Positions 14,450 to 24,167 of a stretch of DNA of 32,210 nt are shown piece by piece. The position numbers and the translations under genes are program-made. The DNA is from Hyphomicrobiales bacterium (GTDB lineage: Bacteria > Pseudomonadota > Alphaproteobacteria > Rhizobiales > Methyloligellaceae): assembly GCA_022361215.1 (NCBI GenBank), contig JAKSBI010000383.1:1-32210 (forward strand), given 5' to 3'. Numbering within the stretch: the first letter of the stretch is position 1; every line of letters starts with the position of its first letter. The notes beneath the pieces were generated by a model. That model did no database searches and had not been told where the DNA came from. It saw only the letters and a list, made by a program, of their open reading frames with translations.

Positions 14450-14464
14450 TTAACAGTTCGTTAA
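14450..14464. promoter_or_regulatory. CtrA-type site TTAA-N7-TTAA
   Basis: Exact TTAA-CAGTTCG-TTAA, the full CtrA consensus of alphaproteobacteria. It lies in the divergent region between the His/Cys-rich gene (start 14329) and the hypothetical gene at 14603, in otherwise GC-rich DNA. Confidence 0.6.
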
Positions 14465-21133: not shown

Positions 21134-21814
21134 TCAGGCGGCAAGCAGCGGTGTCTGCTCGCCGTCATCGCAGCTTGCGAATTCGACGTCCGGGTCTCGC
21201 GGCTCTGCCAGGCTGGCGCTGATGGCGTCGATCGAAATCGGACGCTCGGCGCGTCGGGACTTGCCTTCGAAGCAAGCCCCCTGCTCGATCTTGATCGCGC
21301 GGTGGTGGATCTCGCCCACGACGTAGCAGGCCGACTTCAGCGTCAGGCGTTCGGCCTGGACGGTGCCGACAATGCGCCCATGCACGACCACGTCCTCGGC
21401 CATGATGTCGCCCACGATGCGCGCCGCCGGACCGAGCAGAAGCGATTTGCAATAGACGTTGCCTTGCACCTCGCCCAGAACCGCGACATTGCCGTCCGCG
21501 ACGATGTGTCCGAGAACCTTCAGGCCCTTGCCGACGACATGCTCCGGCGAGCGAGCCAGGATCTCGTCCTCCGGGTCCGGGGCGGGCTTTGCCGCCAAGG
21601 GCGCGGTGGCTGCCGAATAGAGACGGCGCGCCAGAGACGACGACGCGTTGCCCTTTCTCTCGACGGCATTCCGCTCTTCGCCGGGCTCGGCACCACTGGT
21701 CTTGGCGTTCGGCTGCGTCCGATGTTGCGGCTTGAACGCAGGCAGATTGCTCGGATCGTGCAGAAGCGATCGCCGCATCCGCGGGTTCGCCGTTCCGGCC
21801 GTTTTCTGCTGCAT
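21134..21814 (-). CDS. Bactofilin (polymer-forming cytoskeletal protein)
   Basis: 226 aa from ATG 21814 (an upstream GTG at 21865 would add 17 residues; neither has a strong ribosome site). The N-terminal ~85 residues are disordered and basic/Ala-rich. The central bactofilin domain (about 90-195) is a repeating beta-helix pattern: GLKVLGHIVADGNVAVLGEV, GDIMAEDVVVHGRIVGTVQAE, then SACYVVGEIHHRAIKIEQGA and FEGKSRR. The acidic C-tail is short. Bactofilins form filaments at the membrane and place cell-wall or stalk enzymes in alphaproteobacteria. The small gene upstream on the same strand carries a CtrA site, so cell-cycle control is plausible. Confidence 0.85.
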   Translation of the reverse strand: MQQKTAGTANPRMRRSLLHDPSNLPAFKPQHRTQPNAKTSGAEPGEERNAVERKGNASSSLARRLYSAATAPLAAKPAPDPEDEILARSPEHVVGKGLKVLGHIVADGNVAVLGEVQGNVYCKSLLLGPAARIVGDIMAEDVVVHGRIVGTVQAERLTLKSACYVVGEIHHRAIKIEQGACFEGKSRRAERPISIDAISASLAEPRDPDVEFASCDDGEQTPLLAA

Positions 21815-21890
21815 GCGAGCCCTGCCCCTATCGCTCACTGTCGTTGGGAGTCCCTTCTGAATCACATCTGGCGCGGCGGACGATCCAGAG

Positions 21891-22232
21891 TCATGGCGAC
21901 AGGTGCGCCGGTCTCATGGGTGTCTCTTGCGGGCTGGTAGGGCGTGCGCTCTTCAAGGCCTGCGCAATCCGACGATCGAGCCGCCGCCGCAAACGCCGAT
22001 GCAGCTTGCGAAGCCTGACGCCCCAGACCGCGGTCCACAGTCGAACCGGCCGCCGATCAAGCGCCAGGAGGCCTTGCGTGGTCACGAACAGATACCCCTG
22101 AAACTCGAGCACCAATCCGTGCCGCGATAGCGTGTCGAGAGTCGCATCCCGACCCTCGAAGACTGAGATCGGGGTTTTCGCCAGCCTCGCCAACGTCAAT
22201 AGCGAGGCCCGGTCGAGCCTTAGTGCCGACAT
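21891..22232 (-). CDS. Small hypothetical protein, winged-helix-like
   Basis: 113 aa from ATG 22232, with GGAG nine bases before. The first 60 residues resemble a winged helix: LLTLARLAKTPISVF as first helices, DTLSRHGLVLEFQGYLFVTTQG as recognition helix and wing. A strongly basic stretch follows (RLRKLHRRLRRRLDRR), then a proline-rich tail. DNA or RNA binding is inferred from shape and charge only. The bactofilin gene follows 76 bases downstream, perhaps in one transcript. A CtrA-type site lies 80 bases upstream. Confidence 0.55.
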   Translation of the reverse strand: MSALRLDRASLLTLARLAKTPISVFEGRDATLDTLSRHGLVLEFQGYLFVTTQGLLALDRRPVRLWTAVWGVRLRKLHRRLRRRLDRRIAQALKSARPTSPQETPMRPAHLSP

Positions 22233-22311: not shown

Positions 22312-22326
22312 TTAACCAACCCTTAA
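22312..22326. promoter_or_regulatory. CtrA-type site TTAA-N7-TTAA
   Basis: Exact TTAA-CCAACCC-TTAA, 80 bases upstream of the minus-strand gene starting at 22232 and so placed to control it and the bactofilin gene behind it. Confidence 0.6.
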
Positions 22327-22427: not shown

Positions 22428-22832
22428 CTACAGATCCATCAACAGCCGCCGAATGAAGGCGTTGGTCTTCTCGATCTCGCGCGTGAGCGTCTCGACGATC
22501 TCGCTGCGTCGCTCGGCGAGCCGAGCGCCTTCCAGCGTCTCGGCCGCCGCGGCGGTCTCGACGACGGACCAGGCGCCGATGCACTTGGCCGAGCCTCCGA
22601 TCGTGCGGGCGATCTTCCGCCACTCTCTGTCGCTGGCCGTCTCCTTGAGCCGCTTCAGGCAGCAGCCGGACTGTGTGCTGAACAGCTCCAGCATGTCGCG
22701 CTCGTGCGTCCTGTTGCCGAGCGTATAGCGCGCGAGCTCCACCAAATCGACGGGACGCCGGGATTTCGACGGCCGCGACGGTCTGTGTGCCTCGTCGGAT
22801 TGGGCGACGAAGCCCTCAACCGTGAGTTCCAT
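22428..22832 (-). CDS. Hpt-like protein without the phospho-accepting histidine
   Basis: 134 aa, cytoplasmic. A short disordered N-terminus (1-27) leads into a four-helix bundle like a histidine phosphotransfer domain: DLVELARYTLGNRTHERDML, then SDREWRKIARTIGGSAKCIGAW, then ETAAAAETLEGARLA and a last helix. In working Hpt domains the third block reads A-H-x-L-K-G-S-A; here His is Arg76 (CGC) and Lys is Gly79. Phosphotransfer is therefore not expected, and the protein may instead bind a kinase or receiver as an inhibitor or scaffold. It stands alone; no kinase is adjacent. Confidence 0.75.
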   Translation of the reverse strand: MELTVEGFVAQSDEAHRPSRPSKSRRPVDLVELARYTLGNRTHERDMLELFSTQSGCCLKRLKETASDREWRKIARTIGGSAKCIGAWSVVETAAAAETLEGARLAERRSEIVETLTREIEKTNAFIRRLLMDL

Positions 22833-23117: not shown

Positions 23118-23213
23118 CAGATTTGTTGGACGGCTCTCGGCCGCCGCCCGCGCCGGTGCGCCGAGACCCAATGACGGTGAGCGCGGCGTATGCGGCATCG
23201 GACCCGAGCTGTC

Positions 23214-24167
23214 ATGAGACAAGTCTGGCGGTTTGCGCTTGTGGGCCTCTTGCTGGCGCTCGGCAGCCCGCAGGCCCGCGCCGAGGACGACCTCGCGCGG
23301 TCCCCCTGCGGCGGCACGCTGGCGGCCAAGGTTTGCCTGGTCGACCCGCCCACGCGGTCGCAACGCGGGATTGGCGACCTGCGCCGGCCCTGTCTGCCGG
23401 GCAGCCGCGACTACGTCTCGACCTTCCTTCGGATTTACACCTTCTATCCCAAGCGGCTGCGCGAGGAGATGTGCCGCCTGAAGCGGATCTTCGTCGAGAA
23501 CTCCTTCTGGGCCTCGGGCTATGCCGATCCGGGCGGGCCCTCGATCGCCGTCCGCCGGGAGATCCTGGACCGAAACCTGACGCTTTCGCAGTGGGCGACC
23601 TGGAAGGAGCAGCTCTCGTTCGAAGGCTCTAAGGAAGCCTACCGGTCGGCGGCGGGGCTGCCGTTCATCTCCGCCGCCCTGCCCTTGCCTGTCAGCGGCG
23701 CCGCCTATTTCATTGTCACCCATGAGCTCGCCCATCTGATGGACCGGGACATCGGCGCATCGAAGGTGGCACCCGGGTCCTTCGCCAGCCTGAGCTGGCG
23801 TGCGAAGAACAAGATCGACACGCAAGCCCTGACCGCCGATTGGCCGCGGCCCTGCTTCTATCTCTGCCGGCGAGGGAAACTGAAGCCCGCCCGCGTGCCC
23901 GAGCTCTATGGCGCGCTATCGCGCGGCGCTTTCGCCAGCCTCTATGCCACGCGCAACCCGACCGAGGACTTCGCCGATACCATGACCTTCCATATCCTGG
24001 CGCGGCATCCGGGCTTTCGCTATCGGGTACACTATGGCGACGGCCGGGTATGGGACATAGGGCGGCATCTGGACTCCGCTGCCATGCAGCCGAAGCGCGC
24101 GTTCATCGAGTCCGTGCTGCAACGCCGCGACCCTCCGGCGCCAAACGCATCGCATTCGATGAACTGA
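23214..24167 (+). CDS. Exported putative zinc metalloprotein with HELAH motif
   Basis: 317 aa from ATG 23214; the open frame extends 8 codons further up. Sec signal at about 1-23 (FALVGLLLALGSPQARA). A typical metal site HELAHLMD has His170, Glu171 and His174. About 80 residues on, NPTEDFADTMTFHIL has Glu251 placed like the third ligand of gluzincin peptidases. Eight Cys in the mature part suggest disulfides (for example Cys32/Cys41 and Cys214/Cys218). I do not recognise a named family. Likely periplasmic; peptidase activity is inferred from the motif. No operon partner is certain, as the next gene starts about 150 bases on. Confidence 0.7.
   Translation: MRQVWRFALVGLLLALGSPQARAEDDLARSPCGGTLAAKVCLVDPPTRSQRGIGDLRRPCLPGSRDYVSTFLRIYTFYPKRLREEMCRLKRIFVENSFWASGYADPGGPSIAVRREILDRNLTLSQWATWKEQLSFEGSKEAYRSAAGLPFISAALPLPVSGAAYFIVTHELAHLMDRDIGASKVAPGSFASLSWRAKNKIDTQALTADWPRPCFYLCRRGKLKPARVPELYGALSRGAFASLYATRNPTEDFADTMTFHILARHPGFRYRVHYGDGRVWDIGRHLDSAAMQPKRAFIESVLQRRDPPAPNASHSMN

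Follow-up and report, generated by a model that had tools for sequence, protein, structure and literature searches.

A stand-alone Hpt protein without its acceptor histidine in a Hyphomicrobiales genome: a candidate pseudo-Hpt

Closest described systems and the window Hpt

Dead relatives of phosphorelay proteins can tune signalling. The plant pseudo-HPt AHP6, which carries Asn at the acceptor site, is described as a negative regulator for which competition has been proposed (PMC7402358). In Pseudomonas aeruginosa, FimL is described as having Hpt-like domains with Gln at both acceptor sites and a role in polar signalling (PMC3019171). The literature consulted on pseudo-HPt and histidine phosphotransfer deals with plants; FimL (PMC3019171) is the nearest bacterial case considered. 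Stand-alone bacterial pseudo-Hpt proteins seem to be little described. Among active proteins, ShpA is reported to serve as a histidine phosphotransferase in the ShkA-ShpA-TacA relay of Caulobacter (PMC7010744).

Here we analyse a protein, the window Hpt, encoded on a contig of 32,210 nucleotides (JAKSBI010000383.1; the whole contig is called the window) from a genome of the order Hyphomicrobiales. We consider a pseudo-Hpt to be its best reading. It shares its fold with ShpA (PDB 2ooc), which among solved proteins comes closest to the family profile, but has Arg where the aligned motif of ShpA has the acceptor His. Like AHP6, it combines an Hpt fold without acceptor His with the presence of intact paralogs in the genome; AHP6 differs in being a plant protein with a separate loss of His and with reported inhibition. 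With FimL it has in common bacterial origin, Hpt-like structure and absence of acceptor His, while FimL contains two Hpt-like domains, is linked to the ChpA system and did not arise by duplication of a stand-alone Hpt.

Table 1. Features of the window around the gene of the window Hpt
Feature	Position	Strand	Basis or remark
CDS of the His-less Hpt	22428..22832	-	134-aa ORF; predicted disorder in residues 1-24, predicted helical bundle in 25-134
Codon 76, CGC (Arg76), at the phospho-acceptor His column	22605..22607	-	codon read and alignment column
Codon 79, GGA (Gly79), at the H+3 Lys column	22596..22598	-	codon read and alignment column
Codon 32, Glu; His in 94.9% of the family; helix A	22737..22739	-	alignment column
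Codon 43, His; Leu in 94.9% of the family; start of helix B	22704..22706	-	alignment column
113-aa ORF, neighbour	21891..22232	-	no Pfam or NCBIfam match
Bactofilin gene, neighbour only	21134..21865	-	Pfam
TTAA-N7-TTAA, past the hpt stop, upstream of both the 113-aa ORF and the bactofilin gene	22312..22326	+	exact site

Predicted fold and the lost acceptor

The Pfam Hpt family (PF01627) matches the window Hpt weakly (E 4.7e-4; 20.8 bits, below the curated cut-off of 24.6 bits), and the phospho-acceptor His of that family is replaced by Arg76. The homology is certain, since the same genome encodes two intact Hpt proteins, here called C41 and C823, with which the window Hpt shares 58% and 47% identity, respectively. 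Third-position G+C of 0.87, compared with 0.61 and 0.50 at the first and second codon positions, makes the reading frame coding-like. Absence of stop codons was rejected as a sign of function, its probability for 134 codons under neutrality being about 0.15.

From a 30-row alignment, AlphaFold2 predicts the four-helix-bundle Hpt fold with a mean pLDDT of 86 (95-98 per 10-residue block across residues 31-130). Five helices are present in the model, at residues 30-36, 41-64, 68-85, 88-98 and 102-133. In VIA-align, solved Hpt proteins stand at the top (HptB 7c1i, Z 16.5; 3myf, Z 16.1) and Caulobacter ShpA gives Z 14.0, the highest non-Hpt row having Z 12.5. Foldseek brings up the same Hpt chains first, with a best E of 6.0e-3 and no match reaching E 0.001. 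A profile built from 30 family members and compared with solved proteins ranks ShpA first (E 5.6e-13). The earlier note had recognized an Hpt fold pattern, and this is borne out by the AlphaFold2 bundle, Foldseek and VIA-align; the structure prediction it proposed as a check yields a helical bundle over residues 25-134 matching solved Hpt proteins. The codons CGC and GGA, together with the alignment columns, agree with its reading that His is replaced by Arg76 and Lys by Gly79.

How unusual these two replacements are was judged from 277 loci together with the window, 278 records in all, which gave 261 ORF rows and 158 distinct aligned sequences. The sequences added from the order-wide search correspond to 80 of its listed places, and further loci came from other searches. 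One of the 158, L057, is the Hpt portion of a hybrid kinase and was dropped for the tree, leaving 157 rows. His occupies the acceptor column in 156/158 sequences (155/157 without the hybrid kinase), the alignment-based contig scan having kept its best 80 of 503 and its seed patterns containing canonical motif letters, which biases it towards His-bearing members. The two exceptions both have Arg: the window Hpt and L098 from Rhodomicrobium sp. R_RK_3. At the H+3 column, Lys is found in 142 of the 158 sequences, and the 16 without it are the window Hpt and 15 sequences that keep His. The rare event in the window Hpt is thus the loss of His (2/158). The earlier note also took the change of Lys to Gly as telling; Gly79 does stand at the H+3 column, but it is weak evidence, because a position at which 16/158 sequences have no Lys is less strictly held and its change alone says little.

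The Rhodomicrobium protein keeps the H+3 Lys and has Ala instead of Gly at H+4. Its gene lies in the family's usual context beside a gene similar to that of the growth pole ring protein GPR (see below), and it is the sole stand-alone member in its genome, where the other match lies within an 840-aa frame. Among the eight genomes of its family that were searched, the stand-alone gene was found only in this one, and another gives a weak match that is part of an 846-aa frame. This scarcity hints at loss in that group, and not at a selected pseudo-Hpt.

No ortholog of the window Hpt was found in the other genomes searched, its genus being represented in the set by this genome alone. The scan of genome contigs with the single window Hpt protein confirmed no relative, and a plasmid search gave no match. 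According to the earlier note, His in homologs from sister species would indicate recent decay. Formally this is the case, since all near homologs have His; these are, however, either paralogs or the ancestral GPR-linked copy, which points to loss after duplication and not to recent decay of an ortholog.

Paralogs and the GPR-linked family

In the genome that contains the window (G000), one ShpA-like Hpt family has three representatives, namely the window Hpt, C41 and C823. The acceptor His and the Lys are both kept in C41 and C823, and in C823 Asp replaces the H+4 Gly. The window Hpt and C41 share an N-terminal start motif and a clade. In the tree of 157 rows, a branch with SH-aLRT 87 separates all three copies from the rest; the pairing of the window Hpt with C41 has SH-aLRT of only 22. 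Comparison of upstream DNA between the window Hpt and C41 or C823 revealed matches of chance length only.

C41 (locus L059, 2264-7220) occupies the usual place of the family. It adjoins a divergent gene for a 1349-aa protein together with ferredoxin and pyridine-nucleotide oxidoreductase genes. The 1349-aa protein contains apolipoprotein-type repeats (PF01442; 102 bits, cut-off 90) and, by eye, two hydrophobic stretches near its N-terminus. This matches the architecture described for GPR (Atu1348; PMC8262873) and equally for its homolog RgsE (SMc00190; PMC7327166), the likeness being drawn from described architecture alone. The window Hpt belongs to the ShpA-like GPR-linked family by sequence kinship, while its gene is without the GPR-like, ferredoxin and FAD/NAD oxidoreductase neighbours that C41 has; C823 also lies elsewhere. 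The window Hpt is a lineage-private extra copy outside the conserved GPR locus. The C823 copy (locus L038, 771-1316) adjoins an adenylate/guanylate cyclase gene.

In 80 named loci of this so far unnamed family (L079-L158), a GPR-like match is present in 74, ferredoxin in 69 and the oxidoreductase in 52, counted anywhere in the locus; the identity of some coiled-coil matches is low, and contig ends truncate some of the loci. Across the order, 310 of 397 genomes contain the family (E <= 1e-12). Among the matches listed, with scoring limited to 11 candidates per genome, more than one member occurs only in G000 (three) and G013 (two). The G013 bin carries two similar GPR-linked Hpt loci, on contigs C44 and C66, possibly representing two strains.

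The linkage of Hpt and GPR/RgsE genes across Hyphomicrobiales looks more general than the dead copy, which is a modest curiosity of one genome. The larger by-product of this analysis is a live Hpt family tied to a GPR/RgsE-like polar-growth gene across the order. Judged by titles and opening lines of abstracts, no report joining a ShpA-like Hpt with a GPR/RgsE-type gene was found. The consulted parts of the GPR and RgsE papers (PMC8262873, PMC7327166) make no mention of such a link, and in those of the RdsA paper (PMC9022086) no Hpt gene is reported near rdsA.

Constraint, possible role and competing readings

The window Hpt has evolved faster than intact C41. Its end branch measures 0.64, compared with 0.40 for C823 and 0.07 for C41, and with four different outgroups it shows 22, 24, 19 and 20 unique changes where C41 shows 5, 4, 3 and 8 (p 0.0002 to 0.023). 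It departs from 5 of 20 near-invariant columns (H32E, L43H, E46D, H76R, K79G); the dropped hybrid kinase departs from seven, other members from at most three. Most glycines, Ser/Ala and core hydrophobic residues of the near-invariant set are unchanged. There are 68 columns in which at least four of the five nearest relatives agree, and the window Hpt deviates at 16 of them, which upholds the earlier view that the altered motif is not a single error. Six of the deviations fall into helix C, the helix of the acceptor site (A70E, D73K, A74I, H76R, K79G, G84C). The H+4 Gly is kept; in Ypd1, this residue is reported to weigh on phosphotransfer more than on binding (PMC6341664). In Ypd1, the receiver is described as docking on helix A together with the first part of helix B and the last part of helix C (PMC6341664), which would put altered columns of the window Hpt, as placed by helix and not by coordinates, into partner-facing elements.

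Selection was examined by a codon model (12 sequences, 108 codons, F3x4). The window branch has an omega of 0.12-0.13; on the IQ-TREE tree it is 0.12, equal to the background, and omega = 1 is rejected (2dlnL 17.8). Three fixed placements of the genome's own copies give 2dlnL of 17.4, 13.2 and 17.7 against omega = 1, and none of 200 simulations under omega = 1, with other parameters held, reaches the observed value. Separate omegas are 0.11 for the window Hpt, 0.012 for C41 and 0.057 for C823. These values are rough, because synonymous sites are saturated (the fitted window branch is about 5), and the test averages over the whole window branch. The window Hpt is freer than C41, yet it has not been drifting throughout.

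We tentatively favor, at slightly less than even confidence, the reading that the window Hpt is an inactivated and still constrained duplicate, predicted to bind but not to pass phosphate, as a competitor or a scaffold. A duplicate of the ShpA-like GPR-linked Hpt of Hyphomicrobiales would have left the GPR locus and lost the acceptor His and the H+3 Lys, and with them phosphotransfer, while the predicted fold and the constraint were kept. Without the acceptor, carriage of phosphate in the usual way should be impossible and the dead copy can probably only bind partners. The window Hpt might still dock to a receiver domain, whether of a hybrid kinase or of a response regulator, and would then compete with, or tether, intact C41 and C823. 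A simple decoy would be expected to look different, since the window Hpt has changes on docking elements; because of the changed docking-face residues H32E, L43H and E46D, its set of partners may have shifted.

In its most far-reaching form, this would be a bacterial counterpart of AHP6: a dead duplicate acting as a non-phosphorylatable damper of a ShpA-like relay at the growing pole of Hyphomicrobiales. We consider such a role unlikely, although, if it exists, relay output would be set by how much active Hpt there is relative to dead Hpt. Having two live Hpt copies beside a dead one, the genome offers a natural test.

The strongest rival is recent loss of function, and we regard it as a serious, if minority, possibility. 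According to it, the duplicate is on its way to disappearance: its signalling role was lost first, the catalytic residues followed, and the frame is open only because the loss is recent. The excess of near-invariant departures, the highest among free-standing members, would also be produced by relaxed constraint, and unique changes are about 2.5 to 6 times as many as in C41. The copy is present in a single genome, and the other Arg case, in Rhodomicrobium, comes from a group in which most searched genomes yielded no such gene. Late release after a long period of constraint is compatible with an omega averaged over the branch. On the other hand, omega = 1 is rejected along that branch and the fold is predicted with confidence. 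Several hits concentrate on the functional face, while the near-invariant core mostly stayed, and K79G and H32E would have required two base changes each if the ancestral codons were the usual ones.

Another explanation, which appears rather improbable to us, is that the Hpt fold was repurposed for a role outside phosphorelays, for example as a structural or scaffold protein acting with bactofilin. The docking-face positions H32, L43 and E46 are altered alongside H76 and K79, helix C carries the six changes given above, and the gene lies outside the GPR context, 562 bases upstream of the bactofilin gene on the same strand. This neighbourhood is, however, not conserved among 60 other genomes, so the adjacency may be a matter of chance, and an operon with bactofilin was rejected for that reason.

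It is very unlikely that the window represents an assembly error or a stray contig of another organism in the genome bin. The assembly does give some ground for suspicion: it has 903 contigs, a contamination estimate of 6.19 and a size of 5.37 Mb, whereas other genomes of its family range from 1.9 to 5.4 Mb and are mostly about 3 Mb. Against this, the three copies group together with the SH-aLRT support given above, their G+C is similar (window 0.64, C41 0.66, C823 0.63), and the genome has just one copy of the oxidoreductase gene that belongs to the GPR locus, which means that there is no second GPR locus. The departures are spread over 16 sites, unlike a sequencing slip, and the loss of His would stand even in a stray contig. 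We know of no precedent for an Hpt acceptor that has moved. A working phosphotransfer protein with its acceptor shifted to H43 is hardly credible: L43H does add a His close to where helix B begins, a docking-surface region in Ypd1 (as described in PMC6341664), and H16 and H43 are the only histidines of the protein, but H43 is on a different helix, 33 residues away from the usual site and roughly a helix length off as judged from helix limits, and the H+3 Lys is gone.

Several further features surround the gene of the putative pseudo-Hpt. The 113-aa ORF next to it has one weak match among the 60 other genomes. On the other side of the hpt gene (23190-24167) lies a gene whose 325-aa product shows an apparent signal peptide and, by eye, a HELAH motif; this protein has no Pfam or NCBIfam match and one relative, of 41% identity, among the same 60 genomes. 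Besides the TTAA-N7-TTAA site in Table 1, a second exact one is found at 14450-14464 and precedes, by 27 bases, a 156-aa ORF that has no Pfam match. We take these sites to be CtrA-box-like; two exact copies are observed in the window, compared with 0.01 expected by shuffling.
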